From: Sulfurimonas sp.
GTDB taxonomy: Bacteria > Campylobacterota > Campylobacteria > Campylobacterales > Sulfurimonadaceae
Assembly (NCBI RefSeq): GCF_029027585.1
Contig: NZ_CP093397.1
Span: 1,973,405-2,037,404, forward strand
DNA: 64,000 nucleotides
Direction of reading: 5' to 3'
Positions 15,525 through 56,227 of this stretch are shown in pieces. A model generated the notes under the pieces. It was not told the DNA's origin, did no database searches, and saw only the letters and a program-made list of their open reading frames with translations. The position numbers were made by a program, and so were the translations under genes. Each line of letters opens with the position of its first letter. Positions within the stretch are counted from its first letter, which is position 1.

Positions 15525-15613
15525 TCTAACAAGTGTTTAATTTTTAATCTTTACGAGTGATTATAAATTTTTATCTTATGCTATAGTTTGTTATCTATAT
15601 AAGTGAGTATATA

Positions 15614-17902: not shown

Positions 17903-17979
17903 AAAATAAGCAGTTTTTTGATATTTTATGCCTAAAAAATAGCTAATATTATATATATAAATAATATTGGAGCTTTAAG

Positions 17980-20718: not shown

Positions 20719-20955
20719 TTATAACTCTTTAAAGCATGTTTGGATTTGTGAAAGTGTTTTTACTTCATCAACGATGCCACTCTCTTTAGCATCTATGGAA
20801 TTTTGTAAATCTTTTATAAAAAATGGTAAAATTTCTTCTTTCATATGTTGAACTATGACAACTATACTAGAGAGCGAAATTATATTTGCTAGAATTTTTT
20901 TGATTTGTGAAGGACCTCCTGTTGAGGCCCCGATTAAGACTATCTTTTTTTTCAA
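20719..20955 (-). pseudogene. cheB: C-terminally truncated CheB methylesterase
   Basis: A 78-residue product that aligns with the first 80 or so residues of the CheB at 2.9 kb: GASTGG (Ser10) and VQHM (His37) are present, as is the region up to the TCxGDIKL segment (here TCFKEL). The rest of the domain, including the catalytic Asp in GxGxDG, is missing. The stop is followed at once by the cheR ATG, and no remnant of the missing half is visible, so this is a clean deletion and not a frameshift. It should be inactive as an esterase, but its reading frame and coupling to cheR remain. Confidence 0.75.
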
Positions 20956-35064: not shown

Positions 35065-37020
35065 ATGTCCTATAAAGTAATATCAAGAAAATTAATACTA
35101 GTTGCTCCTTTATTATTTTTTATTATTGCTTGTATGCGTATATATATAAACCATAATGAAAATAAAAAAAATATTCAAAATTTTATATCTGAGCAGGCGC
35201 GATTAATAGACTCTCTTTATATAACACATAGAAACTACTATCAAAATCTTTATATAAATAAAGTTATAAAGTTAGATGAACAAACTTTACAAGGTTTGCC
35301 TGCTTACTCTGCAGCTAAAATATCAAAAATTTTTTCTGATAACAACAAACTTCACATAACTATGCAAACAGTTAGTGATAGAGCAAGAAATCCAAAAAAT
35401 CAAGCAGATAAATATGAACTTCAGGCAATAGATTTTTTTAAAAATAATAAAAATAAAAAAGAATACTTCGCCCGAGAAGATGATTTTTACCAATATGCAA
35501 CACCACTTAAGATAGAGAAAAAATGTTTGAAATGTCATGGTAAAAAAGAAAATGCTCCTTTATTTATATCAAAAAAATATGACAAAGCCTATAACTATAA
35601 AATAGGAGATATTAGAGGAATTTTAAGTATAAAAGTACCAACTTTTTATATAAATAAGATTTTTTCAAAACAATTTTTTGCTTCATTAGTTTATGACTTT
35701 TTACTTATAAGTATAGTTTCAATTATAGCTTTTTTACTCATGAAGTTTTTCTCAAAACAACAAGAAAAAATAGAAGAAGAACTTAACGCAAGAACTTCCG
35801 AACTTAAGGTGACCGCAAGTAGAGATGCTTTAACAAACTTAGAAAATAGGACAATGTTTAAAGAAAATATTGATAAATTTGATAATCTTGCATTGATTCT
35901 TATAAATATAGACAGTTTTTCTCAAATAAATGATTTTTATGGACATGAGTTTGGTGATGCGATTTTAATTGAGTTTAGTAAAAAACTTAAATCTATTTGT
36001 GTTGAAGAAGAAAATTGTAAATTATTTAGACTAAGTGGAGATGAGTTTGCTTATCTCGTTATAAACAAACCCGAACATATAGTTGTTCAAAAAGCAAAAC
36101 TACTATCTAAAGAGATAAATAGACAAACATATGAAACAAAGGGTGAAAGTATTGAGCTAAATACGACAGTTTGTGTTTCTTTAGAGGAAAAAGAACAACT
36201 ATTAATTACGGCTGATATGGCTCTTAAAACAGCAAGAAAAAATGCAAAAAATATTATTATTTATGATAAAACAATGGCATTAGATAGAGAATATAAAAAT
36301 AATATGCTTTGGACAAAGAAGATTAAAGAAGCTATTAAAAATGATAAAATTATACTTTTTTACCAGCCAATAATAAATAATAATGATGGCTCAATAAAAA
36401 GGTATGAATCCTTAATCAGACTTATAGATGAAGAAGGTAAAGTTATATCTCCATATTTCTTTTTAGAGATATCAAAAAAAGCAAAACTTTACAAACAACT
36501 TACAAAAATCGTAATTCAAAAAAGTTTTGAAATGTTTAGAGAAAATGATTTTGAATTCTCAATAAATCTTAGTATTGAAGATATTATGGATAAAGAGATA
36601 AACAATTACATCTTAGAAATGCTTGAGATTTATAGCGTATCAAATAGAGTTATATTTGAAATAGTTGAGTCTGAGAGTATTGAAAATTTTAGCGAAATAC
36701 AAAAATTTATAAAAAGTGTAAAAGCACAAGGATGCAAAATAGCCATAGATGACTTTGGAACAGGTTACTCTAACTTTGAGTATCTAATGCGACTTGAAGC
36801 GGACTTTATAAAAATAGATGGCTCTATAATAAAAGAAATATTAGTTGAAAAAAATTCAGAAATCATCGTATCTGTTATTGTTGATTTTGCAAAAAGAGCT
36901 GGTGTGAAAGTTATAGCTGAGTATGTTGAGAGTAAAGAAATATTTGATAAAGTAAAAGAACTTGGAGTCGATAAATCTCAAGGTTACTATTTTAGTGAAC
37001 CTAAACCTAGTTTAAATTAG
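35065..37020 (+). CDS. DUF3365 heme-binding sensor with GGDEF and EAL domains
   Basis: A 651-residue membrane protein. A helix at about 10-27 is followed by a periplasmic DUF3365 (Tll0287-like) domain at about 35-195 with a heme c motif, CLKCH (Cys154, Cys157, His158), then a helix at about 205-228, GGDEF (about 250-400, SGDEF in place of GGDEF) and EAL (about 410-650, with YESLIRL and AIDDFGTGYS). The cyclase site is altered, but the EAL core looks usable, so c-di-GMP breakdown controlled by heme redox or gas state is plausible. It lies between Rrf2-flhA and rpsO. Confidence 0.85.
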   Translation: MSYKVISRKLILVAPLLFFIIACMRIYINHNENKKNIQNFISEQARLIDSLYITHRNYYQNLYINKVIKLDEQTLQGLPAYSAAKISKIFSDNNKLHITMQTVSDRARNPKNQADKYELQAIDFFKNNKNKKEYFAREDDFYQYATPLKIEKKCLKCHGKKENAPLFISKKYDKAYNYKIGDIRGILSIKVPTFYINKIFSKQFFASLVYDFLLISIVSIIAFLLMKFFSKQQEKIEEELNARTSELKVTASRDALTNLENRTMFKENIDKFDNLALILINIDSFSQINDFYGHEFGDAILIEFSKKLKSICVEEENCKLFRLSGDEFAYLVINKPEHIVVQKAKLLSKEINRQTYETKGESIELNTTVCVSLEEKEQLLITADMALKTARKNAKNIIIYDKTMALDREYKNNMLWTKKIKEAIKNDKIILFYQPIINNNDGSIKRYESLIRLIDEEGKVISPYFFLEISKKAKLYKQLTKIVIQKSFEMFRENDFEFSINLSIEDIMDKEINNYILEMLEIYSVSNRVIFEIVESESIENFSEIQKFIKSVKAQGCKIAIDDFGTGYSNFEYLMRLEADFIKIDGSIIKEILVEKNSEIIVSVIVDFAKRAGVKVIAEYVESKEIFDKVKELGVDKSQGYYFSEPKPSLN

Positions 37021-37095: not shown

Positions 37096-37371
37096 ATGGC
37101 TTTAGATTCGGCTAAAAAACAAGAAATTGTAACAAAATATGGTCGCTCAGAGAGTGACACAGGCTCAAGTGAAGTTCAAATTGCACTTATAACAGAAAGA
37201 ATTTCTGAACTAACAGAGCATCTTAAAATATTTAAAAAAGATCATGCATCTAGACTAGGACTACTTAAACTAGTTGGACAGCGTCGTCGTTTAATGAAAT
37301 ACTTCAAAAGAAAAGATAAAGTTGCTTATCTTAAGCTTGTAGAAGATTTAGGCATTAGAGATAACATCTAG
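37096..37371 (+). CDS. rpsO: 30S ribosomal protein S15
   Basis: A 91-residue S15 with the conserved [45 protein letters not shown] stretch. It binds 16S rRNA in the platform of the small subunit. Single gene; a weak hairpin CTCT-CCCG-AGAG followed by GGTTTT (about 37397-37414) may terminate it. Confidence 0.97.
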
Positions 37372-37520
37372 TCCAAATCACTATCTACTCTAAATCTCTC
37401 TCCCGAGAGGTTTTAAACCTTAATTTACATATACAAATTAACAAAATTTCATTTCTTTAAATTAAAATTTAGTTTTTAAATAGTAAGCTATACAATTAAT
37501 TATTTAATTGGAGGTTTGTT

Positions 37521-37949
37521 GTGTCTGATAATAACAGCAAAGTAAGTACAGAAGGCTTGACATTTTTAGAAGATGGCGAAGTTTTATATAATGATTTATA
37601 TCTTTTAAGTGAAACTGATGAAAAGGGAATTGTTGAGTATGCAAGTGACTCTTTTTTAAAAATAGCAAATATGCATGCAGAAGATATGATTGGTCAACCC
37701 CACAATGTGGTTCGTCATCCAGATATGCCTCGTGCAGCTTTCAAATCTCTTTGGAACGATGTAGAGTCTAAAGGTTTTTGGACAGGTTATGTTAAAAATG
37801 CACGAAAAGGTGGAGGGCATTACTGGGTATATGCAACAGTTCTTCGTTCAGTTGATAAAAATGGTAAAACAAAATATGTCTCTATCCGCGTTAAACCATC
37901 TCGTGAAGAAATCAAAAAAGCCGAAGCGCTTTATGCAACTCTAGATTAG
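37521..37949 (+). CDS. PAS domain sensor protein (Aer/CetB-like)
   Basis: A 142-residue protein that is essentially one PAS domain (about 25-135). NVVRHPDMPRAAFKSLW and GYVKNARKGGGHYWVYATV match the Aer/CetB type that can bind FAD, so redox or energy sensing is likely. It starts with GTG after a TTGGAGG ribosome site and has a TATACAAT-like promoter at about 37486. It is the first gene of the large chemosensory operon and stands 18 bases before an MCP that lacks a sensor domain, so it may supply the sensory input, like CetB with CetA in Campylobacter. Cofactor is inferred. Confidence 0.83.
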   Translation: MSDNNSKVSTEGLTFLEDGEVLYNDLYLLSETDEKGIVEYASDSFLKIANMHAEDMIGQPHNVVRHPDMPRAAFKSLWNDVESKGFWTGYVKNARKGGGHYWVYATVLRSVDKNGKTKYVSIRVKPSREEIKKAEALYATLD

Positions 37950-37967
37950 AATCCAAAGGAATTTAAA

Positions 37968-39860
37968 ATGGCACTAATGAAAAAAAATACTTCAAACTCA
38001 TCAGCAGTTGTTTCACATAGTAGTGGCGGTGGCGATAAAAGAAGACAAAGAACTTTGGCAAAACAACAACAAATCTCTGAGAGTATTGCTGGTGTTTCTA
38101 TGACAATCCTTGAGAATGCACAAGAGAGTGTAAGCGCGATAGAGCAACTTAAGTCTTCTATGGAGCAGATTGCAACGGCTGCTGAAGAAAACAGTGGTGC
38201 AAGTGAACAAGCTCTCTCAAATGTAAAAGGTATCAATAGTAATATAAGTAGAATGAATACTACGATAAGTACAGTTATATCTTCTACTCTTTCAACTGGT
38301 GAAAATATTATGGCATCTGTTGAAAAGATTAATGATTCTGTTGGGCGAATGGCTACTGCTGTTAAAGTTGCAGAGGAATCATCAACAAAAAGTGAAGAGT
38401 TAAAAGTATCTTCACAAAATATTGGAGATGCTGTTGGTTTTATTGCTAAGATTGCAGATCAAACTAATCTTCTTGCCTTAAATGCTGCCATAGAAGCAAG
38501 CCGAGCAAAAGAGCATGGAAAGGGCTTTGCAGTTGTTGCTGATGAAACTCGAGCTTTAGCTGGAGAGAGTGAAAAAAATGCTGAGTTTATATCTGAACTT
38601 GTTACAAAAATCCAAGGAAGTATAGACCAAATCATCTCTAGTATTGGTGAAACTACAACTACAATTTCTGGTAATGGTGTTAAGGGTAATGCATTAAGTG
38701 CTAAAATGGAAGAACTCACTAAGATAGCTGTATATTCGGTTGAAGCGGCTAGAAGTGTAGATACTTATACTCAAAGACTTAGTGATTTTGTTTCTAAGAT
38801 AAATGATGGTTCTCAAGATATAGCAAATGCATCTAGTGAGATAGCACTTTCAGTTGAAAAAACTTTAAATGGTATAGACATACAGTCAGATGCTCTGGCT
38901 CAAACAGAAGATGACATTAAAGAACTATCAAACCTTGCAGAAGAGTTAAAATTTTCAACAGACACGATGAAGTCAGCAGAAGATATAGCTCTCTCAGCAG
39001 ATACCATAGGTAGTTCTATGGAAGATATCCAAAATGCTCTTGAAGATGTTACAAATGCACTAAATCAAATAGAATCTTCTTCTCATACAACAAACAAAAG
39101 TGCTCTTAATAACAAAGAACTTATAGAATCGGGTATAGAAGCAGCGAAAGATATAGATAAACTTATAGAAATAGCAAGAAGAAATTTTGATCTTTTAAAA
39201 GTTTCCTTTAATTCTGTTAAAAACACTGTAAGTGAGATTAGAGGAGCTTTTAGTGATTCTATAAGGGAAGGAAATAGTGCAGCAAGTGAACTTAATGTTA
39301 TCGTAAAAGAAACTAGAAATGTTGATAAAACAGTTGGAAGTATTTCAAACTCCATCGTTCAGTTAAATATGCTTGCAATAAGTGGTTCTATTGAAGCTGC
39401 TCGTGCTGGTGACTTTGGTAAAGGTTTTGCAGTTGTAAGTTCAGATATTAGAAACTTAGCAAAAGATTCAGAATCAAATACTGATAAAATAAATGATATC
39501 GTAGAGTCTATGAACTCTGAGATTGATATAGTTAGAACAGATTGGAATAATCTTCTAGCATCTCAAGGGAATGAGCAATCACTTATAGATGCTTTAATAA
39601 ATGACATAGTAAAAATAACTGACATGCTTGTTGATTTATTAGATAGATATACAGGTCTTAAAGCTGTTAATGATCAAAATCTTGAAGGTATGAATCAAGT
39701 TGTTATAGGAATAAGTGAAATTCAAAAAGCAGTTGAACTAAGTGCAAGAAATGCTATGGAATCTCGTAAAGCAAGTGAACTTATTATAGAAACCATTTCT
39801 CATATAAGTGATGGTGTTGAAGAGTTGGCAGTTATGGCAGATGAGCTTCAACAAGGGTAA
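37968..39860 (+). CDS. Soluble methyl-accepting chemotaxis protein with two signalling tips
   Basis: A 630-residue helical protein without membrane segment or sensor domain. The first signalling tip is canonical ([19 protein letters not shown], about 162-180, then [15 protein letters not shown]). A second, altered tip ([17 protein letters not shown], about 464-480, then [15 protein letters not shown]) lies exactly 300 residues later. Thus two receptor hairpins are joined in tandem. The N-terminus is a short Ser- and Lys/Arg-rich tail. It should nucleate a cytoplasmic array with CheA and CheW encoded downstream, perhaps with the PAS protein as input. The function of the second tip is open. Confidence 0.85.
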
Positions 39861-39865
39861 AACAG

Positions 39866-41230
39866 ATGATAATCCAAGAGATTTTAATCATTAAAAATGC
39901 CTCTGAGAGTTATGGTATCTCTACTGAGTGTATAAATCAAATTTCAAGAGTTCCTTCGGTTACGGCTCTTCCTTTAAAACCAAAAGGTAGTAGAGGACTT
40001 TGTGCAGTTGGTGGGAATATTGTGAGTTTACTTGACCTAAACCTTTTACTAGGTATGCCAGAGGTTGATTTAACTAGTGAAGATAGCAGACTTTTGAGTT
40101 TAAATGAAGAACTATCATCAAATGCACTTTTAGTAAGTAAGGTTTACAATACTTTAAATATAGATGAATCAAATATAGAATATATAGATAAAGAAGATGA
40201 CCCTGTTATAGCTATTTATAAACATGAAGATTCTCTAATTCAGATTTTATCTCTTGAGATTTTAATTCAAAGTATATCAAGGGTTGATATAAAATCCAAA
40301 GAGATTAAAAACGGTAAGATAAAAGAGATTGAAACTAAAGAAGAAGATGTTAGTAAGTTTTTAATATTTGCGATGTCAAATGAAAAATTTGCTTTAAGTA
40401 TAGACTATTTAAGAGAGATAATATTAGCAGATTTGAACTTTACAGATATAGCCGGTAGTAGCGAAGATTTACTTGGTCTTATAACTTTAAGAGATGACTT
40501 GATTGCTGTTATTGATTTGCGCTCTTATTATGGCTTTTCAAATAAACGAGATGATTCAAATCGTATATTAATTACTTCATATAATGATGAAATAGTAGGT
40601 CTTTTAGTTGATGATATTATAGATATAAAAAATATTTTAAATAGCGATATTGAGTATATGAGAGATAGTTTCCAAGATAATAAAATATCTGGTGTAATTC
40701 ATGATAATGACTCTTTAATATCTTTTTTTGATGAAGATGTTTTAAAGGTTATTTTTTCTAAGAATAGTTCTTATATAGACTCTAAATCTCAAAAAGTTTT
40801 GCATAAAAATGATTCTGAAGTAATTCAAGAAGTTATTATATTTAAGCTTCTTGGTAAAGAGTATGCTTTTGATGTAGAACATGTTGCAGAGATAATAGAT
40901 ATAGTTGATTTTACAAAGGTAGCTTATAGTGATGAGAATGTAGATGGTATCATCAATATAAGAGGTCAAATAGTTACAATAGTATCACTCTTTAAAAAGT
41001 TAGGAATATCTACAAAAATAGATGAAGATTCAAAAATCATAATATGTGATATAGACGAAAATAAGATAGGCTTTGTCGTAGATAGTATCAGTGATATTTT
41101 AGATATAAAAATTGATGAACAAAAAACTCAAGATGATGAATTGTTTGCTCATGTCTTGCATCTAGAAAATGGAAAAAGATTAGTCTTGAGTATGGATATA
41201 GAAAAAATTATCACAAGTGGAGCGAAATAG
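39866..41230 (+). CDS. Protein with three CheW-like domains
   Basis: A 454-residue protein with three tandem CheW folds: about 1-140 (CAVGGNIVSLLDLNLLLG), about 165-300 (LLGLITLRDDLIAVIDLRSYYG) and about 315-454 (VDGIINIRGQIVTIVSLFKKLG). The first repeat is the most diverged. There is no CheV-type receiver. A multi-CheW scaffold could bridge receptor and CheA in an array. It follows the double-tip MCP by five bases and overlaps cheB by one base. Confidence 0.82.
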   Translation: MIIQEILIIKNASESYGISTECINQISRVPSVTALPLKPKGSRGLCAVGGNIVSLLDLNLLLGMPEVDLTSEDSRLLSLNEELSSNALLVSKVYNTLNIDESNIEYIDKEDDPVIAIYKHEDSLIQILSLEILIQSISRVDIKSKEIKNGKIKEIETKEEDVSKFLIFAMSNEKFALSIDYLREIILADLNFTDIAGSSEDLLGLITLRDDLIAVIDLRSYYGFSNKRDDSNRILITSYNDEIVGLLVDDIIDIKNILNSDIEYMRDSFQDNKISGVIHDNDSLISFFDEDVLKVIFSKNSSYIDSKSQKVLHKNDSEVIQEVIIFKLLGKEYAFDVEHVAEIIDIVDFTKVAYSDENVDGIINIRGQIVTIVSLFKKLGISTKIDEDSKIIICDIDENKIGFVVDSISDILDIKIDEQKTQDDELFAHVLHLENGKRLVLSMDIEKIITSGAK

Positions 41231-42285
41231 TGGCAAAAAAAGTACTTATAGTTGATGATTCCGCCTTAGTTAGAAAACAATTAACAGAGATTATACAAAC
41301 ACTTGATTTTGAGATAGATGTTGCAAAAAATGGTAAAGAAGCAGTTGACAAAGCAACTTCTCTTCAATACGATGTAATCACTATGGATATAAATATGCCT
41401 GTCATGGACGGCGTAGAAGCTGTCAAAAGAATAATGAAGGCTCAACCAACTGCCATACTTATGGTTAGTTCACTGACTTTTAATGATGCTGAAGTTACAA
41501 TGGATGCACTAGACGCTGGTGCAATTGACTATATAACTAAACCAGGGACTATGAATGTTGGAAAAGTTCAAAATGCTCAAAATATAGTAGATTTAGTAAA
41601 ATCTCTTAGTAGAATTCCAAAAAGAAGACTTCAAAGAAGAGTTCAAAAAGCACCTCAAAAAGAGAGAAAAGTAGTTACGCAAAAAGTAGAGCAAGTAGGA
41701 GATTCAAGAGATATCCAAAAAGTTATTCTTATTGGTTCTTCTACTGGTGGACCTGGGTTGATAGAGCAGATTTGTGCGAGTTTACCTTCTGCTTATAAAT
41801 ATCCAGTTTGTATAGTTCAGCATATGCCAGAACAGTTTACAGAGGCTTTTGCACAAAGACTTAATCGTTCAAGTATGTTAAATGTGCACGAAACAACTAA
41901 TGGAATGGAGCTACTTCCTGGAAATATTTATGTTGCAAGAGGTGGAGTTCATATGAATTTTGCTAAAAAAACATCTGGAAAAATTGTAATAAAAGAAGAT
42001 AAAGAAAAAGGTGATAATTTTTTTCAACCAAGCGTAAATGATATGATGAAGAGTTCGCTTAATATTTTTAAGGGAGAAAACCTTATAGGCGTTCTTTTGA
42101 CAGGTATTGGTGATGATGGTGCAGATGCTATGGTGGAGCTTAAAAAAGCTGGTGCATATACTCTTGGTGAGAGTGAAGAGAGTGCAACAGTTTATGGAAT
42201 GCCAAAAGTTGCCTTTGATAGAGGTGGTGTTTGTGAACAGTTAAATTTTTCAGATATTTTGAAAAAAATAGTGACATTAAAATAA
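41230..42285 (+). CDS. cheB: Chemotaxis response regulator protein-glutamate methylesterase CheB
   Basis: A 351-residue full CheB: receiver at about 1-120 (VDDSA, phospho-Asp in TMDINMP, conserved Lys in ITKPG), a basic linker, and a methylesterase domain from about 160 with GSSTGG, VQHMPE and GIGDDG triad residues. Unlike the two other cheB genes in the window, this one can be controlled by CheA. The GTG start overlaps the previous stop by one base. Confidence 0.93.
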   Translation: MAKKVLIVDDSALVRKQLTEIIQTLDFEIDVAKNGKEAVDKATSLQYDVITMDINMPVMDGVEAVKRIMKAQPTAILMVSSLTFNDAEVTMDALDAGAIDYITKPGTMNVGKVQNAQNIVDLVKSLSRIPKRRLQRRVQKAPQKERKVVTQKVEQVGDSRDIQKVILIGSSTGGPGLIEQICASLPSAYKYPVCIVQHMPEQFTEAFAQRLNRSSMLNVHETTNGMELLPGNIYVARGGVHMNFAKKTSGKIVIKEDKEKGDNFFQPSVNDMMKSSLNIFKGENLIGVLLTGIGDDGADAMVELKKAGAYTLGESEESATVYGMPKVAFDRGGVCEQLNFSDILKKIVTLK

Positions 42286-42301
42286 AAAAATAGGAGATAA
42301 A

Positions 42302-42928
42302 ATGGCTTTAATAAAAAAACATGTTAAGCAAGAAGTTGAAGAATTACCAAGATTTAAAACACTTGAAGATGCTATAAGCTATTTTGAATCAGAAAATAAC
42401 AACGATAATAAAGACTACGCTATTGAAGAGATTGTAAAGTTTGATGGTGGTGGTAAGTATCTTGTTACTAGTATAACAAAAGAAGATCATATTGAAAAAA
42501 GTTCTTTAACAAAAATAGCCGCAGTAATCTCAAATATGGACCCTGAAGTTGCACCTATTGAAGATATTATGGATTTACTTAAGCTAAATAATGCTTACAT
42601 AAGAAACCTAGGTATCTCGATATTAAGAGATTTTGGTAATGCTATTAGGTACTATATAGTTAAATTTCTTATAGGTGATGATAGAGATTTAAGAATCTTT
42701 GCTATAAATGTTTTAGGTGATGTTGATTTTGCTGAATCAAGAGATATGCTTGTTGAACTTTTAGAAGATGAACAAGATATAAATGTAGCAATGACTGCAG
42801 TTGATTATATGGGTGAAATTGGAGAAGAGCAAGATATAGAACTTCTTGAATCTTTAAAAGCACGATTTGATGGTGAATTTTATGTAGAATTTGCAGTAGA
42901 TGGTGCAATCAAGATGATTAAGGGGTAG
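42302..42928 (+). CDS. HEAT-repeat protein in chemosensory operon
   Basis: A 208-residue acidic protein. From about residue 70 it shows alpha-helical repeats (NAYIRNLGISILRDFG, DLRIFAINVLGDV, INVAMTAVDYMGEIG) typical of HEAT repeats, usually protein-binding. No enzyme motif. It lies between cheB and cheR, and its stop is next to the cheR start, so it is probably a scaffold or regulator of the adaptation enzymes. This role is inferred only from position. Confidence 0.75.
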   Translation: MALIKKHVKQEVEELPRFKTLEDAISYFESENNNDNKDYAIEEIVKFDGGGKYLVTSITKEDHIEKSSLTKIAAVISNMDPEVAPIEDIMDLLKLNNAYIRNLGISILRDFGNAIRYYIVKFLIGDDRDLRIFAINVLGDVDFAESRDMLVELLEDEQDINVAMTAVDYMGEIGEEQDIELLESLKARFDGEFYVEFAVDGAIKMIKG

Positions 42929-42930
42929 TG

Positions 42931-43760
42931 ATGGCATACCTGTTATCAAAAGAAAACTTTGCAAAAATGAGCGAATATGTTTATAGAAAAAGTGGTATTT
43001 TTTTAGAAGAAGATAAGCATTTTGATAAGTTAGCAAAGTATGTAGATGCCAGAGCTGCTGAACTTGAAGTAGATAACTTTAGAAAATATTTTTATAAGCT
43101 TCGTTTTGAAGATAAATCTGGCGAAGAGTTTCAAGCACTTATGAATGGTGTAACCGTAAATGAAACATACTTTTTTAGAGAAAAAGATCAGTTTGAAGTT
43201 TTGGTAAATAAAATTTTGCCAGAGTTACATGAAAAGTTACCTGCTTCAAAAACTTTAAGGATACTATCTTCTCCATGTTCAACAGGAGAAGAACCATATT
43301 CTATGATACTGCATATTGTTGAAGAGGGAACTGTTGTAGAACAAAGAGATATAGAAGTTGTGGGTATAGATATAGACTCAACAGTAATAGAAAAGGCAAA
43401 AAAAGCAAAATATACAGACCGTTCAGTTCATGCCATACCAAAGGGTATATTAGCAAAATGGTTTAAGAAAAAAGCTCTTGGTATCAACTAGGAGATGATT
43501 TACTAGGAAGTGTTGATTTTCAAGTAGCAAATATATTTGATAAAACACAGATGCGTAATCTTGGTAAATTTGATGTTATTTTTTCCAGAAATATGCTTAT
43601 CTACTTTGATGACGCATCTAGGAAAGAGGTAGCTATGACATTTTATGACATGCTAAATCCAGGGGGTTATGTTCTTTTAGGACATGCTGAGTATATGAGT
43701 CGTATAGTTTCTGTTTTTAAAGCAAAAAAGATTGACTCTACATTGATTTATCAAAAGTAG
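42931..43760 (+). CDS. cheR: CheR methyltransferase of main operon (split by a one-base frameshift)
   Basis: The first frame runs to 43491 and the second from about 43485 to 43760; together they form one CheR of about 276 residues. NGVTVNETYFFREK, SSPCSTGEEPYSM and, after the break, FDVIFSRNMLIYFDD and GHAEYM are in the right order. One additional A in the run in TTTAAGAAAAAAGC restores the frame through SSWYQLGDDLLGSVDFQVAN. Start chosen at ATG 42931, five bases after AAGGGG, instead of GTG 42928. Sequencing error is the likely cause. Confidence 0.85.
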
Positions 43761-43776
43761 ATTAACTATTTGTTGT

Positions 43777-43817
43777 GAACTTGAGTGATAATTTAAAGTG
43801 AATTTTCACTCAAGTTC
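43777..43817 (+). promoter_or_regulatory. Long hairpin between cheR and cheY with an alternative fold
   Basis: A perfect 12-bp stem, GAACTTGAGTGA (43777-43788) with its complement (43806-43817), and an 18-base loop. Inside the loop, AGTGAA (43797-43802) can pair instead with TTCACT (43805-43810), which is part of the 3' arm, so the two folds exclude each other. No T run follows. It may adjust expression or mRNA stability of the genes downstream of cheR. Confidence 0.6.
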
Positions 43818-43855
43818 AAAATTAATAGAACTAAATAAATTTAAGGAATTATAAT

Positions 43856-44227
43856 ATGCCATTAGTAATATTTGTGGATGATAGTGAAACAGCTTTAGCG
43901 TCAACTAGAATGGTAACAAACTCAATGCCAATAGAAGTAAAACAATACACCCAAGCACAAACCGCTTTAGCAGAGATTAAAGCTGGTATGACACCTGATT
44001 TAATCATTACAGACCTCAATATGCCTGTAATGAATGGTTTTGAATTTTTAGAAGCTTTAAGAAAAGTACCAGCAACTGGCAGAACACCATGTTTGATGTT
44101 AACAACAGAAACTAAACCAGAACTAAAACAAAAAGGTAAGGCATTAGGACTTACTGGTTGGATTGTCAAACCATTTAATCCAGCACAGTTAAAACAAGCA
44201 ATTTCAAGAGTGCTAAGACTAGCGTAA
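43856..44227 (+). CDS. cheY: CheY-like response regulator (first)
   Basis: A 123-residue single receiver domain. Acidic pocket FVDDSE, phospho-acceptor Asp in IITDLNMPVM, Thr in LTTE and Lys in VKPFNP are all present. No output domain, so it acts by protein binding, for example to a motor or as a phosphate sink. The final base overlaps the start of the CheZ-like gene (TAATG). Confidence 0.9.
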   Translation: MPLVIFVDDSETALASTRMVTNSMPIEVKQYTQAQTALAEIKAGMTPDLIITDLNMPVMNGFEFLEALRKVPATGRTPCLMLTTETKPELKQKGKALGLTGWIVKPFNPAQLKQAISRVLRLA

Positions 44228-44631
44228 TGGTGAATAAAATGAATATGTTGTCCTCGATTAATGATTTGCTTTCTCATATAACAGAAGTAGAGCAAAATGT
44301 TATTGAAATGTCCAAAGAATCAATGTTAATGATAAGTAAGTTTTTTGAAAAAAACTCGATAGAATTAGATGATAATGCTATAAAAGGTTTACAATATCAA
44401 GATATTATTTCTCAACAATTAAGTGCGACAATAGAGGCGATAGAGAGTGTTCAAAAAAGTATAAATATTTTTGAAAATGCTCAAAATTCAGATGAACAAA
44501 TAGCTAGTGATAGTATAGAAAAACTTCACAAAAAGTTAGCAAAAACACTTCAAACAGCAAAAGATAGAAAAGATTCATTTTCAGGTAAACTTAAAAATGA
44601 AAATGCATCTGATGAGATAGAGTTTTTTTAG
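44227..44631 (+). CDS. Candidate CheZ-like CheY phosphatase
   Basis: A 134-residue, mostly helical protein. The segment GLQYQDIISQQL contains Asp59 and Gln63 in the D-x3-Q spacing of the CheZ active site (Asp143/Gln147 in Escherichia coli). The C-terminus ends in an acidic-hydrophobic peptide (SDEIEFF) resembling the CheZ tail that grips CheY. It lies between two cheY genes and overlaps the first. Overall similarity to CheZ is low by eye, so the call is based on motif, tail and position. Confidence 0.65.
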   Translation: MVNKMNMLSSINDLLSHITEVEQNVIEMSKESMLMISKFFEKNSIELDDNAIKGLQYQDIISQQLSATIEAIESVQKSINIFENAQNSDEQIASDSIEKLHKKLAKTLQTAKDRKDSFSGKLKNENASDEIEFF

Positions 44632-44640
44632 GGAGATATT

Positions 44641-45006
44641 ATGGCAATTATAATGGTAGTAGACGATTCAAAAACAGTTAGGAATTATCATGGATCGATA
44701 TTAAAATCTCAAGGTTTTGAGATTTTAGAAGCAGAAAATGGTATGGAAGCATTGGAAAAATCTCTTGGTGCATCTGTTGATTTGTACTTAGTGGATGTAA
44801 ATATGCCAATAATGGACGGTTACTCTTTTATAAGTGATTTGAGAAAACAAGATGCTCATAAAACTGTGCCAGTTATTATGGTTACAACTCAAGCCAAAGA
44901 AGAAGACAAGATAAATGCTTTTAAAGTTGGAGCAAATATTTTTGAAACTAAACCTATAAAACCTGATGTGCTTCAAGCATATGTAGATATTTTAGTTAAA
45001 AGTTAG
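44641..45006 (+). CDS. cheY: CheY-like response regulator (second)
   Basis: A 121-residue receiver with VVDDSK, phospho-acceptor Asp in YLVDVNMPIMDGY, TTQ and the Lys in FETKPIKP. It differs substantially from the CheY at 43.9 kb, so the two probably have different partners. It is 14 bases before cheA, in the same direction, with a GGGAGA ribosome site. Confidence 0.92.
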   Translation: MAIIMVVDDSKTVRNYHGSILKSQGFEILEAENGMEALEKSLGASVDLYLVDVNMPIMDGYSFISDLRKQDAHKTVPVIMVTTQAKEEDKINAFKVGANIFETKPIKPDVLQAYVDILVKS

Positions 45007-45019
45007 GAGGCAGTTAATT

Positions 45020-47739
45020 ATGGATCAATTATTAGAACAATTTTTAAGTGAAGCAAGAGAAAATCTAGCATTTATTGACCAAAATATTGAAGATATTGGT
45101 GGTGATGACCCAGAACTTTTAAACTCCGTTTTTCGCGCGGCACACACTTTAAAAGGTGGTAGTGGGATTGTAGGTTTTGATAGTATCAGAGATATAACGC
45201 ATCATGCAGAAGATTTACTAGATATGCTTAGAGATGGAAGACTAGAGTTTGTTGAGTCTATGACAGCGGCACTTTATGATGCATTTGATGAAGTTTTAAA
45301 CCTAGTAGAAGCAGCAGAAGAAAGCGAAGGTATAGTTGAAGCAGATACAGAGATTTTAAATACTATAGTAACTAGTTTAAGTGAGCAAATGGGTAAAGAT
45401 GAAGAAGTAGAGAGTGTTTGGAAGGCAGAATTTTTGCTTTTAGAAGATACTTCTTCAGTAGTTAATATGCCACTTTATATGTTGAAAAATGAATCTTGCC
45501 AAAAATTAGCTTTTAAAAATCCACCTTTAAGTGAAGAATTTTGTGAAAATGAAAACTTTTATGCAGTTTTATTTGATATAGATGAATCATGTATGGTTTA
45601 TGGTAATGATCCCATATATACTCTTTCTCTCATAGGAGATAAAGTTTTAGGTGTTCACTCATGCATATCTGATAACAATGCGAAATCTGTTCTTAGTGGT
45701 ACTGAAGATGCAGATGGTTTACTTTTAAGAGTTCAGCTAACGGCTTTTATAAAGTCTAACTATGCTGAAATAGAAGAATCACTTTTCAACTTTATAGATG
45801 AACTTCAGTTTTTACCTTTAGATATTCAAACTTTACTAAGTATAGATGCTGGAGAAAAAGGACATAAAATAGACTCTTTAAAGGAGTTAAGTGATGTTGC
45901 TAATGACTTAGAACTAGATGAAATTGTAGAAGCTGTTCAGCGTTCTATGGAGTTAGTTGGTGCTGATACACTTCAGTATGCACAACTTCAACGATTTATA
46001 GATATAAGCTCTTTTATAGAGGAAGGTGATGTTAAAAAATTAAATGACTTTTTCCAGAATCTTTATAAAGGTGAAGTTTATAATATAGAGAATAATAATG
46101 AAGAAGAAGTAGTAGTACAAGAAGTTAGTGTTGAAGAAAAAGAAACGGAAGAAGTAGAAGAAGAAATAATACAAAGTACAGATGCTAATATAGAAATAAA
46201 TGAGCATATAGAACTAGCACTTACAAACATCAAAACTCAACAGCTCCAAGCATTAGAGTATATACAAAGTGATGATGACTTAAAAAGAGTTTTATCGATG
46301 ATGTCAAAGATTAAAAAATTCACACCTCAGATGCCAGATGACTTAAGCACAAAAGATGAGATAAAGTCTTTCTTGGAATCTCAATTAGGTATTGTCACAT
46401 CAACTCCAGAAGTAAGCGTAGAGAAAAAAGTAGAACAAAAAGTTGAGAAAAGCTTGAACCACAAGTAGAAGAAAAAATTGAGAAAAAAGTTGTACTAAAA
46501 GTTGAAGCTAAAACTGAGCAAAAAGTTCAAAAAACAGTTATTGGCAAAACGGTTAAGATAGAACAAGAGTCTATTGATAGTCTTATGAATGTTGCAGGGG
46601 AGCTCTTAGTTGCTAAAAATTCTCTTCCATATTTAGCTGATAATGTTGCAGGTTTAAGTCATGAGGTTATTAAACGAGAGATTATGGATAAATATATTTT
46701 TATCAACCGTCTTACCGAACAACTACAAGACCTTATAATGGGAATGAGAATGTTACCTATTTCGTATGTTTTTGATAGATATCCAAAACTTGTTCGCGAT
46801 ATTAGTAAAAAGCTTGGAAAAAAAGTTAAACTAGAGATGCAAGGTGGCGAAACTAAACTAGATAAAAACATGATAGAGATGTTGGCAGACCCAATGATTC
46901 ATATTATGAGAAATTCACTAGACCATGGTGTAGAGATGCCAGATGTGCGTGAGCAAAAAGGTAAGAGCGCTATGGGTAATGTTACTCTAAAAGCCTATAC
47001 TCAATCAGATAGAATAATCATAGAAATTATAGATGATGGCGCAGGTATAAATGTAGAGCGAGTTGCTAGTAAAGTTTTAGAAAAAGGACTGATGACACCT
47101 GAACAGATAGATAATCTTGATGAAAATGAGATGGCTGAGTTAGTTCTTTTACCAGGACTCTCAACAGCAGAAGAGATTACTGAGTTTAGTGGGCGCGGTG
47201 TTGGAATGGATGTTGTTAGAAAATCCATAGAGGGTTTTGGTGGAAGTATAAACATAAAAACAAAAGCAAATCAAGGAACAGTGATAACCTTATCTATCCC
47301 GATGTCTTTAGCCGTAACATCTCTGCTTCATATCCAAATGAATGATATTCATTATGGCCTTCCAATGGATAGCGTAAATGAAACGGTTAAACTTGAACGC
47401 TCTGAGATAGAGTACCTTCATAATGAGCCGTTTGTTTATATTCGTGGGGAAGTGATTCCCTTACTATTTATAAAATCAATGTTAAATGAAGAAGAGATGA
47501 AAGATAAACCTCTTTCAATCGTAGTTTTAAATATTAAAGATAACTTTTTAGCAGTAGTAGTAAATAATTTTTTAGGTCAATTAGATGTAGTTCAAAAGCC
47601 TTTAGTAGGAATCATGGAAGGTCATCCACTCTTTAGTGGAACTGCACTTCTTGGAAATGGACAAATCATAATGGCAATGGATCCAATAGGACTTTTAGGA
47701 ATTTCGCAAAAACTAAAAAAAGATGTTGCAGTAGCATAA
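45020..47739 (+). CDS. cheA: Chemotaxis histidine kinase CheA (split by a one-base frameshift)
   Basis: Frames 45020-46468 and about 46450-47739 together give a CheA of roughly 906 residues. P1 is at about 1-105 with phospho-acceptor His42 (RAAHTLKGG). A long middle region (about 130-360) has no domain that I recognise, and a Lys/Glu/Val repeat linker follows. After the break come the P3 dimerisation helices, P4 ATPase (MRNSLDHGVE, DDGAGI, GRGVGMDVV) and P5 CheW-like domain. One extra A in GAGAAAAGC restores the frame through the linker. No receiver is fused, unlike Campylobacter CheAY. It is the kinase for the arrays formed by this operon. Confidence 0.9.
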
Positions 47740-47752
47740 AAAGGGCTTTATA

Positions 47753-48514
47753 ATGAAAGATTTAATAGTTTTTAGTGTTGGGAGTAGTCGTTATGCTCTT
47801 GATATTGAAAATATACAAAGAATTATTCAAGTGTTTGATATGAGTGAGATACCAAATGCCCATAAGTTTATAGATGGAATGATGTCTTATGAAGGTAAGG
47901 TTATAAAAGTTGTTAGCTTTCGTAAGATAATCGGACTATTAACTTATGATGAAGAACTTGTCCAACTATTTGACAAACTTAAAAAAGCTCATCAAGCATG
48001 GGTAGATGAGTTGGAAATCTCTATAAAAAATGGTTCTAAATTTACGAGAGAATTAGACCCAAATAAGTGTGAACTTGGGAAATGGTTAAATGCTTTTAAC
48101 TCTTATGATGATGAGATTGGAAAAACCTTTAAGCGTTTATACGAAAATCACAAAAATCTTTATATTACTGGTGCAAATATTTTAAAAACTTTACAAGATG
48201 ATAAAGAAAAAGCGATAGAAGAGTTTAACAAAAGTATTTATGATATATTTTACCAAACTATGAATGAGATAGACTCATTTATAGCAAAAGTTGATAAGGT
48301 AGCAAACTCTTTACAAAAGCTTGTCATTTATGAAAGTAATAATAATATTTTTGCAGTTAAAGTAGATAAGATAGAAGATATTGCCCATATAGAAGATAAT
48401 GAAGTTATGAATAATGATGAAGATAATAATAGTGATTTTTTAGAACTTTTAGGTGTTCTTAATTTAGATGATGTTTTGATAAATGTAATTAAAACTATTA
48501 ATATACCAATCTAA
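47753..48514 (+). CDS. cheW: CheW split by an inserted CZB zinc-binding-like domain
   Basis: A 253-residue protein. Residues about 1-65 form the first lobe of a CheW fold and about 190-253 the second. Between them lies a CZB-type helical domain with His80, Trp83, Cys106 (KCELGKW) and His133. The fourth usual zinc ligand, four residues after His133, is Tyr137. CZB domains in receptors and cyclases sense zinc or hypochlorite through the Cys-zinc site. As a coupling protein between CheA and receptor this one could bring its own chemical input; zinc binding with the missing His is uncertain. Confidence 0.83.
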   Translation: MKDLIVFSVGSSRYALDIENIQRIIQVFDMSEIPNAHKFIDGMMSYEGKVIKVVSFRKIIGLLTYDEELVQLFDKLKKAHQAWVDELEISIKNGSKFTRELDPNKCELGKWLNAFNSYDDEIGKTFKRLYENHKNLYITGANILKTLQDDKEKAIEEFNKSIYDIFYQTMNEIDSFIAKVDKVANSLQKLVIYESNNNIFAVKVDKIEDIAHIEDNEVMNNDEDNNSDFLELLGVLNLDDVLINVIKTINIPI

Positions 48515-48525
48515 GGAGTAAAAAA

Positions 48526-48795
48526 ATGGCAATAACATATGAAAAAAATCGTGCAATATTTGCATCTGTAATATATGAAGATGAGGTTATTTCTTTTAGG
48601 GACTTTTTACAAGAAAAAGCACCAGAGGAAGTAAAACTTGAGTTTAGCGAATGTGAAGATGTTCATCTAGCTGTTTTACAAATCATAATGGCATATAAAA
48701 AAAACTATCCGATTTCTTATGAGTTTGGTAAGACTAAAAAACTTTTTCAAAAAGTTCTAGAAGGATTTGTTACTAGTGAAAACCATTGTTATTAG
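48526..48795 (+). CDS. Small STAS-like protein in chemosensory operon
   Basis: An 89-residue protein, not securely recognised. The pattern beta-VKLEFSECEDVHLAVLQIIMAYKK followed by a helix resembles a small STAS (anti-anti-sigma type) domain, but the phospho-site region is not typical. A GGAG ribosome site precedes it. It overlaps the ParA gene by 20 bases, so the two are made together. It could be an accessory of array positioning; this is inferred from place. Confidence 0.6.
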   Translation: MAITYEKNRAIFASVIYEDEVISFRDFLQEKAPEEVKLEFSECEDVHLAVLQIIMAYKKNYPISYEFGKTKKLFQKVLEGFVTSENHCY

Positions 48796-49519
48796 CAATA
48801 GAAAAGGTGGTTCTGCAAAAACAACAACAGCAGTAAATATTGCAAGTGGTTTAGCAAAACATGGTTCTGTCTTATTACTAGATTTTGATACTCAAGGGCA
48901 TGCTTGTATAGGTGTTGGTTGTGAGCCAAGTGAAACGCTTGGAGTTCACTCAATATTTACAGGACATACTCTGAGTGAGAGTTTTATACCAACTGTGCAT
49001 GATAACTTAACGCTATCTCCGGCACTGTCCTTCTTTGATGTTTATGAGTACTCTGATCTAAGAGGTGTTTTGAAAAGTCGTTTTAAAAGAGAGAATATTG
49101 CAGATTTTTTTGACTACTGCGTTATAGATACCCCACCAACCTTTGATGCTTTGTTAAAGAACTCTCTTGAAGTCGCAGATGCTGTTGTTATACCATTCGT
49201 CCCTCATCATTTAGGTGTAGTTGCAGTTGGTCAGATGCTTCGTGCTGTATATCAAAGTGCTTCAACTTTTTCTCGTGAAATAGCAGATATATCTATACTC
49301 CCTGTTATGTACAATCCTCACATAAATGAGCATAAAGAATCATTAGCCAAGGTTAAAACATCTTTTGGCGAGGAGAAACTATTATCTCCCATAGGAGTAG
49401 ATATAAAACTTGCAAAACAGTTTGAATCAGGTTCTCCAATCATCTTGGATGAAAAAAGGTCTAAGGGGATGAAAGATTATAACCGTTGTGTAGAAGAACT
49501 TATGAAAAGGATTGGATAA
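48776..49519 (+). CDS. ParA/Soj family ATPase of chemosensory operon (ParC-like)
   Basis: About 247 residues with a deviant Walker A motif NRKGGSAKTTTAVN, Walker A' region LLLDFDTQGHA and VIDTPPTF. ParA-type ATPases in chemotaxis operons (ParC, PpfA) position receptor clusters. There is no ParB or plasmid context nearby. I prefer GTG 48776, ten bases after AAGGA, to TTG 48767, which nearly touches the ribosome site. The gene is followed, with a one-base overlap, by a response regulator gene. Confidence 0.82.
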   Translation: MKTIVISNRKGGSAKTTTAVNIASGLAKHGSVLLLDFDTQGHACIGVGCEPSETLGVHSIFTGHTLSESFIPTVHDNLTLSPALSFFDVYEYSDLRGVLKSRFKRENIADFFDYCVIDTPPTFDALLKNSLEVADAVVIPFVPHHLGVVAVGQMLRAVYQSASTFSREIADISILPVMYNPHINEHKESLAKVKTSFGEEKLLSPIGVDIKLAKQFESGSPIILDEKRSKGMKDYNRCVEELMKRIG

Positions 49520-50835
49520 TGAATGTTTTAATAGTAGATGATAATGCAAACAATAGAATAATACTTAGACTACTTCTTGAAGATTATGAAGAAGATACAG
49601 GTACAAAGTTTGAAATACAAGAAGCTAAGGATGGACAAGAAGCTGTTAACAAATGTGAAAAAGATAATTTCGATATAGTTCTTATGGATATTCTGATGCC
49701 AAATATGGACGGAATCCAAGCTACAAAACTTATAAGAGAGCAAAACAATAAAATTATGATTATCGCTGTTTCAGCAGTTGATGATAGTGAGAGAAAGAAA
49801 GATATTTTAAATAATGGTGCAGAAGATTATATAATTAAACCTGTAAATGCAGATGTATTTAGAAGTAGAATTCAAAATTATGTAACACTTATTGAAGCAA
49901 GAGCACATAAAAAAAATAACACAAATAATGTAAACCTTTTTACAACAGAAGTTTTTTCAAGATATACAAATTTTATGATTAATTCTGAAGATTCTATATC
50001 TGAATTTTGGGAATTTTTTCTTTTAAATATCACTAAAAAGAATAATAATCTAAGTGATGTTGTTCGTGCTATCTTTTCTATAGCAGAAGCACAGATAAAA
50101 TTATCTATAGATGCTAATGTTGTTATAGAAGAATCAGAAGAAAAACAATATTTTACATTAACAGATATTGATAAACTTCCTAAAAAAATTATTGAGCTTA
50201 TTGTTATAAAAAATGGCGTTTTGTGTGAATATAAAATAGAAACATCAAAAATATCTTTTGAGTTAGAAAAAGTATATATAAAAGATGAAGAAGAAGTTAG
50301 CAATCAAGCTTCAAATGTACAATCAGTTGTGCTTGAAGAAAAAGATGAAGAGATAGCATCTAGTGTTGAGTATAAATCACTAGCATTAGAAGTTTTTGAT
50401 TATCTTGATAGTGAAGATTTGGTTGATTTAGAAGAGTATGCGGCTAAGCTAAACTCTTTAATGTTGATAGTTGGTAGTGGAAATGTGACATCAGAAGAAG
50501 TTCAAGAAATATACTCATATTTAGAAAAACTCGGGTCTATCTTGTCTTCATATAGTGAAGTATTTGTTATTTCAAAAGCGCTAAAAGAATTGTCTTATGA
50601 TATGTCAAACAATGAGTTAAAATTTATAGAAAATTCTGAAATTCTAGGAAGAATGTGTGCTGCATTTAGTAATGATATGTTAAGATGGATTCAGATGTCT
50701 TTTCACACAGGTGCGCCAAGCATCGATTTTATGAATGACACTATTGTAGTAAATTGCGAGACTATAGGTTCAATGCTAAAACTTGATGAAAGTGTTAGTA
50801 ATGTAGAAGATTTAGATGATATCTTTGATTTTTAG
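49519..50835 (+). CDS. Response regulator with unknown C-terminal domain
   Basis: About 438 residues. A receiver at 1-130 has VDDNANNR, phospho-Asp in VLMDILMPNMDG and Lys in IIKPVN, of the type common in hybrid kinases. The remaining 300 residues are acidic, contain no DNA-binding, GGDEF or kinase motif that I can identify, and include two regions (about 140-255 and 290-425), the latter largely helical. The start is ATG 49519, coupled to parA (TAATG); the TTG at 49486 is upstream without need. It may be an output of this chemosensory system. Confidence 0.75.
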   Translation: MNVLIVDDNANNRIILRLLLEDYEEDTGTKFEIQEAKDGQEAVNKCEKDNFDIVLMDILMPNMDGIQATKLIREQNNKIMIIAVSAVDDSERKKDILNNGAEDYIIKPVNADVFRSRIQNYVTLIEARAHKKNNTNNVNLFTTEVFSRYTNFMINSEDSISEFWEFFLLNITKKNNNLSDVVRAIFSIAEAQIKLSIDANVVIEESEEKQYFTLTDIDKLPKKIIELIVIKNGVLCEYKIETSKISFELEKVYIKDEEEVSNQASNVQSVVLEEKDEEIASSVEYKSLALEVFDYLDSEDLVDLEEYAAKLNSLMLIVGSGNVTSEEVQEIYSYLEKLGSILSSYSEVFVISKALKELSYDMSNNELKFIENSEILGRMCAAFSNDMLRWIQMSFHTGAPSIDFMNDTIVVNCETIGSMLKLDESVSNVEDLDDIFDF

Positions 50836-50844
50836 GAGTTTTTA

Positions 50845-51051
50845 ATGTACAAAGTAAAAGTTCAAAATTCATGTAGATGTTTTTTAAAAAGTGGATTTAG
50901 TGAAAACTTAGAATTTGACACAAAAGATGAAGCAAAAAAAGAAGCTGAGTATATGATAGGCATCATGAAGTCCAATTTTTGTCAAAAACATGAATTTGCA
51001 TTAAGTGAGCAATTTGGGGACTATACTATTTTTATAAAGCTAAGAGCATAA
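50845..51051 (+). CDS. Small conserved-looking protein of unknown function
   Basis: A 68-residue product, last gene of the chemosensory operon, nine bases after the response regulator, with an AGGAG ribosome site. Cysteines occur as Cys-x-Cys near the start (NSCRCFLK) and once more in the middle (NFCQKHEF). No family recognised. Its stop abuts the stop of kdsB on the other strand. Confidence 0.6.
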   Translation: MYKVKVQNSCRCFLKSGFSENLEFDTKDEAKKEAEYMIGIMKSNFCQKHEFALSEQFGDYTIFIKLRA

Positions 51052-51768
51052 TTAAAGAAAAATTTCTATAGCTCTGCGCAAATCTTCTTTAGTATCAATC
51101 CCAAAACCTGTACTAGCGACTTTTAACATGGTTATCTTTTTTTGATGATAAATAGCTCTTAGTTGTTCTAACCCTTCTATATCTTCGATAGGAGCGTCAC
51201 TTAGATTACAAAATTCTTTTAAACTTTTTTTAGAAAACCCATAGATGCCAATGTGTCCAAAGTAGTTTGCTCTTCCACTTCTGTTATATGGAATGAGTGA
51301 GCGAGAGAAATATATGGCATTGTTATCGCTATCTAGTACGACTTTAACAAGATTTGGGTCTTTTGCTGAGTCTGCATTTATAGAGTTGTAACAACTTCCC
51401 ATGATAAACGGCTCATCTATTTTTTGCAAATTTTTAAGTTTACTTATTAGCATCTCAACAACCTCAGGCTCAATAAATGGTTCATCTGCTTGAACATTTA
51501 TGATTATCTCATCATCATCAAGATTTAGTATAGTAGCACATTCATGGATTCTATCTGTTCCGCTTTTATGTGTTGTTGATGTTAGCATCGCTTCAATGCC
51601 ATACTCCTTACAGACTGCTATTACTTTTTCATCATCAGCTGCTATAACAACCCTGTCTAGATGCTCAACTGCTTTTGCTGTTCTAACTACCATCGGTAAA
51701 CCACCAATATCTGCTAAAACTTTTTGAGGAAACCTAGTAGATGCTAATCGTGCAGGAATAATAATCAT
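51052..51768 (-). CDS. kdsB: 3-deoxy-manno-octulosonate cytidylyltransferase
   Basis: A 238-residue enzyme that activates Kdo with CTP for lipopolysaccharide core synthesis. IPARLASTRFPQKVLADIGG at the N-terminus (nucleotide binding), NVQADEPFI and a GIDTKEDL C-terminus identify it. Full length. It is a single leftward gene sharing a 56-base divergent region with the methyltransferase gene. Confidence 0.95.
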   Translation of the reverse strand: MIIIPARLASTRFPQKVLADIGGLPMVVRTAKAVEHLDRVVIAADDEKVIAVCKEYGIEAMLTSTTHKSGTDRIHECATILNLDDDEIIINVQADEPFIEPEVVEMLISKLKNLQKIDEPFIMGSCYNSINADSAKDPNLVKVVLDSDNNAIYFSRSLIPYNRSGRANYFGHIGIYGFSKKSLKEFCNLSDAPIEDIEGLEQLRAIYHQKKITMLKVASTGFGIDTKEDLRRAIEIFL

Positions 51769-55504: not shown

Positions 55505-56227
55505 ATGCTAAAAACAATTTTAATATTTTCCATGCCATTTTATGTTATACTATTTTTAACAGGTTGTACTGCTAATTTAACAGAACCAGAGATAGACTTT
55601 GAACCACCCGCTTATGTTGAGCAGATGCCGTCTCGTGAAGATAAAAAAGATTATATATCTACAGGAAGCATATTTGGTCAAGGAGATAATCCACTTTTCT
55701 CAGACCACAAAGCAATGCATGTAAATGATATAGTAAGAGTTGTTATTTCTGAAACAGCTCAAAGCTCAAGTACTGGAACAAAAGCCCTTGCTGAATCCGA
55801 TGAGAGTGCTTTAGGTGGTGGAGTTTTTGCATCAGCTGGTGGAAACCCAGCAATGAGTGCCTATGCAAGTAATCTTACTGGCTTATCAAATATAGGCTAT
55901 ACTGGAAAATCTTCTAATACTTATTCAGGTCAAGGAAGTGCAACAAAAGATGCAACTTTTACAACTACTGTTTCAGCTAGAATAGTAAAAGTTTTACAAA
56001 ATGGAAACTATTTTATCTCTGGAAAAAGAGAAATTTTAGTTGATGAACAAAAACAAACTATACAAATAAGTGGTGTTATTCGTCCATACGATATAGACCA
56101 ATATAATAAAATTAGTTCTGCTCAAATGAGCGATGCTAAGATTCTTTATAAAACACAAGGAGATCTTGACCGTGCGACAAAACAAGGATGGGGAACCAAA
56201 GTTATTCAGGCTGTTTGGCCATTTTAG
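55505..56227 (+). CDS. flgH: Flagellar L-ring protein FlgH
   Basis: A 240-residue lipoprotein (signal peptide ending LTGC) forming the outer-membrane L ring of the flagellar motor. The conserved SIFGQGDNPLFSDHKAMHVNDIVRVVISE region and C-terminal SGVIRPYDI are present. Full length. It is preceded by an RpoN-type promoter. The next gene begins inside its 3' end. Confidence 0.94.
   Translation: MLKTILIFSMPFYVILFLTGCTANLTEPEIDFEPPAYVEQMPSREDKKDYISTGSIFGQGDNPLFSDHKAMHVNDIVRVVISETAQSSSTGTKALAESDESALGGGVFASAGGNPAMSAYASNLTGLSNIGYTGKSSNTYSGQGSATKDATFTTTVSARIVKVLQNGNYFISGKREILVDEQKQTIQISGVIRPYDIDQYNKISSAQMSDAKILYKTQGDLDRATKQGWGTKVIQAVWPF

Follow-up and report, generated by a model that had tools for sequence, protein, structure and literature searches.

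Gene content of the locus

Here we describe a chemosensory operon in a 64,000-nucleotide stretch of the Sulfurimonas sp. genome GCF_029027585.1 (contig NZ_CP093397.1, positions 1,973,405 to 2,037,404; hereafter the window, with coordinates counted from its first nucleotide). The operon comprises 14 same-strand genes (37521-50835) in a 2.6 Mb genome assembled as a single contig and, on sequence grounds, is a complete member of chemosensory class F9. It is bounded upstream by rpsO (37096-37371, + strand) and downstream by a gene on the - strand (51052-51768) that we take to be kdsB from general knowledge of the family.

All genes of the operon lie on the + strand. The first encodes a stand-alone Aer/CetB-type PAS protein (37521-37949), followed by DosM (37968-39860), a methyl-accepting chemotaxis protein (MCP) with two signalling domains, CheW3 with three CheW domains (39866-41230), a CheB with a receiver domain (41230-42285), a HEAT-repeat protein (42302-42928), CheR (42928-43760), a CheY-like receiver (43856-44227), a CheZ-like protein (44227-44631), and a second CheY-like receiver (44641-45006). 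Downstream of these are CheA (45020-47739, with Hpt, dimerisation, HATPase, and CheW domains), a CheW with a CZB zinc domain between its halves (47753-48514), a STAS-fold protein (48526-48795), a ParA-type ATPase (48776-49519), and a response regulator (49519-50835) composed of a receiver, an alpha/beta domain resembling that of the REC-anti-sigma protein LvrC, and a helical C-terminal domain. Pfam matches were obtained for the double MCP, the triple CheW, CheB, HEAT_2, CheR, both CheYs, CheA, CheW-CZB, ParA, and the receiver protein, so that the pathway parts named in an earlier reading of this DNA (the original prediction) are all present. Its count of fifteen co-directional genes is revised to 14; the additional open reading frame (ORF; 50836-51051) has no match. 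The cluster is real and not a chance arrangement, as more than 30 further genomes have its genes in identical order.

Assignment to class F9

Class F9, as published, is recognised by two signature components, DosM and CheW3, and its member in Vibrio cholerae forms purely cytoplasmic arrays (PMC9321776, PMC7534058). Both were found in the operon by Pfam, CheW3 with three CheW stretches in 454 aa and DosM with two MCPsignal stretches, without a sensor and without a transmembrane (TM) segment, which agrees with the membrane-free receptor proposed originally. With both F9 signature proteins present, the operon is therefore not a new chemosensory class, and this possibility was ruled out. The proposal of a distinct class holds in that the operon belongs to another class than the motor-linked F3 pathway and fails in that this class is the already known F9. 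Going by published descriptions, the V. cholerae F9 cluster (cluster I) likewise has a TM-free DosM with a pair of signalling domains, a triple CheW, a CheA, and motility handled by another class encoded elsewhere in the genome, but the operon described here differs in its leading Aer-type PAS gene, CheW-CZB, CheZ-like protein, and large receiver-bearing regulator, and in having no second receptor.

The phylogeny of CheA agrees with this assignment. In a tree for which other Pseudomonadota F9 CheAs were too divergent to be placed, the P3-P5 region of the operon CheA clusters with its counterpart from L101, a DosM/CheW3 locus of a gammaproteobacterium (support 99/98), and it shares 47% identity with the L101 F9 CheA vs. 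35% with the F3 CheA of its own genome. Assignment of CheA to the standard class, one of the two outcomes that would have spoken against the original prediction, was not obtained. The genome carries a separate F3 set of cheV, cheA, and cheW at 1.797-1.801 Mb and encodes FliM, twelve other MCPs, and a receiver-less CheB with CheR elsewhere (this CheB at approximately 2.9-3.5 kb of the window), while the operon lacks the F3 hallmarks of a cheV-cheA-cheW core, a CheA with an extra receiver, and a CheB without a receiver. Class F3 was ruled out for the operon by the CheA tree and by the lack of a receiver in its CheA. With the genome's own F3 set and FliM located elsewhere and CheA siding with F9, the operon is, at the level of class, separate from the motor-linked pathway.

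Distribution and genomic context

In this phylum, F9 was reported in two studies of 2022 as partial sets only, in Nitratiruptor and Nautilia (PMC9321776, PMC9239204). Full-length CheW3 gave a strong match in 83 of 228 genomes of the family, representing 11 of 18 genera, a few of the matches being cut by contig ends; a full CheW3 is missing in the other 145. The protein is rare outside the family, occurring in just 3 of 298 genomes sampled across the phylum and in 5 of 398 Pseudomonadota genomes, one of which had been chosen beforehand. While the partial sets of Nitratiruptor and Nautilia also contain dosM, cheW3, and cheBR, they lack cheA and cheY (PMC9321776), in contrast to the complete system at a fixed site in another family. 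The earlier picture of a phylum limited to partial F9 sets is corrected by these data, which reveal a complete and elaborated F9 system in a lineage for which the published accounts consulted record none.

Gene order was near-invariant in a first set of loci and in 13 further loci of several genera, including four in genomes assembled as one or two contigs. The accessory genes follow this pattern, the gene set being kept across the loci of relatives as the original prediction had anticipated. Variants include the replacement of CheW-CZB by a plain CheW, a second CheW, a swap of STAS and CheW (one locus), and an extra kinase before the regulator. This last variant, found in some loci, is a hybrid PAS/histidine kinase gene of approximately 500 aa between parA and the regulator (16446-17960 in locus L039).

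In most Sulfurimonas and several other genera, rpsO lies directly upstream of the F9 block, and 8 of 12 Sulfurimonas genomes without F9 have kdsB immediately after rpsO. Because this junction is empty in F9-less relatives, the block behaves, as far as gene content can tell, as one unit that is gained or lost as a whole and to which the accessory genes belong. That several genera have the block at one and the same site may reflect an early arrival of F9 in the family followed by repeated loss. Recent random acquisition is disfavoured by this single site across genera, with the exception of Sulfuricurvum, whose F9 loci are placed elsewhere. This presence/absence series among close relatives, in which a single operon at one chromosomal site holds every part, makes the function of the system testable by removal of a single block.

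One F9-less Sulfurimonas genome (G793) has only a receiver-less cheB and a cheR between rpsO and kdsB (14419-16231 in locus L157), 61% and 59-67% identical to the respective operon genes, which may be an F9 remnant or relocated F3 genes. Further upstream, 10 of 37 loci have a GGDEF-EAL gene at most 3.5 kb before the PAS gene, its presence tracking lineages; in the window, it encodes a Tll0287-like (CxxCH) GGDEF-EAL protein located upstream of rpsO (35065-37020). As this putative cyclic di-GMP gene is absent from most loci and lineage-bound, it was rejected as an F9-linked component and is regarded as neighbourhood only. Between rpsO and the PAS gene, a promoter-like block, TTTAAATTTAATTTTAG...TAAATAGTAnGCTAT (approximately 37455-37505), is kept in 12 loci and, judged by eye in these, is unlike a flagellar sigma-54 or sigma-28 promoter.

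Core and variable components

Comparison with F9 loci of Pseudomonadota indicates which parts accompany DosM and CheW3 across phyla. The HEAT protein was detected in loci L097, L098, and L100 (E-values of 5e-22, 3e-16, and 2e-19, respectively), encoded between CheB and CheR in the first two and beside CheR in the third. A STAS-like frame follows CheA in the same three loci, as recognised by eye from its place, length, and pattern without a profile, and ParA is encoded in L097 and L100. Locus L100 also encodes Aer-type PAS proteins and yields a CheZ-like match, albeit a weak one, a CheC/CheX protein is found instead in L098, and the large regulator was seen in Campylobacterota only among the loci examined. 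HEAT and STAS are common to F9 loci of two phyla and are therefore parts of F9 and not passengers. Judged by these gene sets, the F9 core would include HEAT, STAS, and in most cases ParA, and the PAS protein, CheZ-like protein, and CheW-CZB appear more variable. The core common to both phyla consists of DosM, CheW3, CheB, HEAT, CheR, CheY, CheA, STAS, and mostly ParA.

The STAS protein reaches no Pfam cut-off, but its AlphaFold model (pLDDT 92) has SpoIIAA and RsbV as best structural matches (Z-score of 9.8 over 81 residues at 2.2 A for SpoIIAA), which supports the original STAS-like designation. Its motif region, C-x-D-x-H-L-x3-Q, contains the invariant residues D45, H47, and Q52 and has no conserved phosphorylatable serine at the canonical place. 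Searches of PDB sequences with the CheZ-like, STAS, and regulator domains returned chance matches only.

Sensory input

As DosM has no sensor, input is expected from the soluble PAS protein and the CheW-CZB protein. The PAS protein matches Aer in the PDB (8dik, E-value of 1.5e-29) and retains, within the sequence VRHPDMP, the counterparts of Aer residues R57, H58, and D60, the Arg, His, and Asp of the Aer PAS domain that bind FAD (PMC2628428). It is a candidate FAD redox sensor of the Aer/CetB type and may deliver redox or energy signals to the array. A similar arrangement is found in Campylobacter jejuni, where the stand-alone Aer-type PAS protein CetB, encoded beside the sensor-less receptor CetA, serves this receptor via HAMP; CetA, however, is membrane-bound and has a HAMP domain, whereas DosM is soluble and has none.

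In most members, a second input of oxidants or zinc may enter through the CZB domain built into CheW. CZB domains sense both, and CheW-CZB proteins are known and most abundant in Clostridia (PMC8262984). These proteins share the joining of CZB to CheW, but in the proteins found here CZB splits one CheW domain, and some F9 members carry plain CheWs. The zinc ligands H80, C106, H133, and H137 are intact in 24 of 25 CheW-CZB proteins. Only in the genome studied here is the last ligand, at residue 137 of the protein encoded at 47753-48514, changed from His to Tyr.

Array architecture and ParA

The hairpin tips of DosM are exactly 300 residues apart in all 31 sequences measured (of 32), which range from Campylobacterota to Pseudomonadota. 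This fixed spacing would suit a DosM rod bridging two baseplates. As a residue count bearing on the 44H receptor class expected for F9, the two halves extend 148-150 residues from the tip, compared to 141-142 residues in most other receptors of the genome. In the proposed mechanism, DosM rods would span two opposed CheA/CheW3 baseplates, forming a membrane-free double-layer array in which CheR and CheB adapt the receptor.

Many che operons encode a ParA homologue without ParB (PMC2829493). The operon fits this pattern, with a parA that has no accompanying parB and encodes the deviant Walker motif KGGSAKTTT. By analogy, ParA-driven segregation of the array is plausible, with ParA using the nucleoid to space arrays and share them out at cell division. 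The closest parallel is CheOp3 of Rhodobacter sphaeroides with PpfA and TlpT, in which a ParA homologue of a che operon serves a cytoplasmic cluster and the receptor has a basic N-terminal extension, although TlpT is, by its description, a receptor of another type than DosM.

A short basic peptide may provide the contact. In all 37 distinct sequences, DosM starts with MAL[VMI][KR][KR], the sixth position being Ser in one of them, and a variable linker separates this start from a second basic stretch; in this genome, DosM begins MALMKK. The HEAT protein has the same type of start in 35 of 38 sequences (here MALIKK), and of the 57 window ORFs of at least 100 aa only DosM and HEAT begin in this way. 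Activators of ParA/MinD ATPases, including TlpT, typically have a short basic N-terminal extension (PMC7993993). We propose that DosM and HEAT are gripped by one partner, most likely ParA, via this shared peptide, which gives a direct hypothesis for how ParA might hold a chemosensory array. Direct DNA binding by a basic receptor tail is known as well, from FrzCD (PMC5716589).

Signal termination and output

Once activated, CheA would phosphorylate the two CheYs and the receiver-bearing regulator, and the CheZ-like protein would remove the phosphate. This protein has an invariant Q-x-Q-D-I-I-x-Q-Q block (QYQDIISQQ here) and ends in DEIEFF; in Escherichia coli CheZ, the catalytic pair is D-x3-Q. 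It does not match the CheZ profile PF04344, but this profile matches nothing in the whole genome and is therefore a weak test. Only two features, the D-x3-Q motif and the acidic-aromatic C-terminal peptide, suggest its CheZ-like identity. The IEFF end of this protein and the DDIFDF end of the regulator recall the CheY-binding tail of CheZ.

The output is probably not directed at the flagellar motor in the first place, and the regulator, perhaps an anti-sigma-like protein controlled by its receiver, is the best output candidate. Its AlphaFold model (pLDDT 73) comprises a receiver, an alpha/beta domain, and a helical domain, and the best whole-model Foldseek match is LvrC of Leptospira (E-value of 9e-10 vs. 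2e-7 for receiver-only chains), which consists of a receiver and a Bergerat anti-sigma domain (PMC13269768). Both proteins have a receiver followed by a similar order of secondary-structure elements, but the second domain has no detectable sequence similarity to that of LvrC, and the Sulfurimonas protein has an extra helical domain. The middle and C-terminal domains have no Pfam match, hhalign found no match between the middle domain and HATPase_c_2, and the matches obtained with VIA-align were taken up by receiver domains and are uninformative for the remainder. The modelled resemblance provides a lead towards a REC-anti-sigma-like protein.

Frame breaks in cheR and cheA

In this assembly, cheR and cheA are each split over two frames (42928-43491 and 43467-43760 for cheR; 45020-46468 and 46447-47739 for cheA). 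Near position 43480, cheR lacks a base that each of the five aligned relatives has, and the break in cheA lies near 46450-46468. All collected orthologues are encoded in a single frame (26 of 26 for cheR, 21 of 21 for cheA). This strain's copy of the operon may be inactive unless the breaks are assembly errors. Because other genes of the assembly are broken likewise, assembly indels seem a likelier cause than decay.

Alternative explanations

The account we favour, and consider reasonably probable, is a complete F9 system forming a membrane-free double-layer array that takes its input through PAS and CZB, is shared out by ParA, and has a non-motor output. Several points weigh against it. The array, the role of ParA, and the output are predicted here from gene content, the middle domain of the regulator has no match to GHKL profiles, and two genes of the pathway, cheA and cheR, have broken frames. 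As DosM lacks HAMP, the PAS protein must contact it in another way than the CetB-HAMP model describes. The main objection to ParA as the partner of the shared peptide comes from locus L098, where DosM and HEAT begin similarly with no ParA encoded nearby, so the peptide may serve another partner. The frame breaks would also agree with a decaying relic, in which cheA and cheR would be pseudogenes and the operon would be heading to the clean loss seen in relatives, as would the 145 family genomes without a full CheW3, the clean rpsO-kdsB junction in several of them, and the zinc ligand H137 that is lost here alone. Every other gene of the operon is open, and similar breaks in a cheB-cheR fusion and a GGDEF-EAL gene, together with apparently shortened MCPs, point to assembly indels instead, making decay in this strain an unlikely explanation.

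Other outputs were also considered. The operon CheYs might act on the motor together with F3 in a second flagellar chemotaxis pathway, as do the cytoplasmic arrays of R. sphaeroides, a species in which signals from the cytoplasmic cluster partitioned by ParA are integrated at the motor (PMC2829493). A full flagellar gene set in 97% of the F9 species surveyed (PMC9321776), the presence of FliM in the genome, and the two CheYs and CheZ-like protein of the operon are consistent with this, but under standard conditions no phenotype is detectable in V. cholerae without its F9 CheA (PMC7534058), the conserved navigator of the phylum is F3 with 40H receptors (PMC9321776), and the upstream element resembles, by eye, neither type of flagellar promoter; we regard a shared motor output as doubtful. 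More doubtful still is a CheA-driven partner switch composed of the receiver-controlled, anti-sigma-like regulator and the STAS protein. The LvrC match of the regulator, ranked above receiver-only chains (PMC13269768), and the similarity of the STAS model to SpoIIAA and RsbV fit this scheme, whereas the negative HATPase_c_2 comparison, the lack of a conserved N-box Asn in the regulator, and the missing phosphorylatable serine of STAS do not. Pseudomonadota loci in which no regulator of this kind was detected have STAS as well, which places it with the array genes. Extending the favoured F9 account, the system could, rather speculatively, be an intracellular organelle for redox or oxidant sensing, with DosM as a scaffold read by exchangeable soluble sensors, ParA docking on the shared peptide, and the regulator and STAS directing the signal to gene expression instead of swimming.

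Other interrupted genes of the assembly

Relatives encode a cheB-cheR fusion in a single frame of approximately 560 aa; in this assembly, the gene (- strand, approximately 19939-20937) is interrupted, leaving a CheR frame and a CheB stub. A transglutaminase-like/GGDEF/EAL gene (56130-58947) seems to be spread over several frames and may be a pseudogene or affected by assembly errors, and some MCPs of the genome appear shortened.

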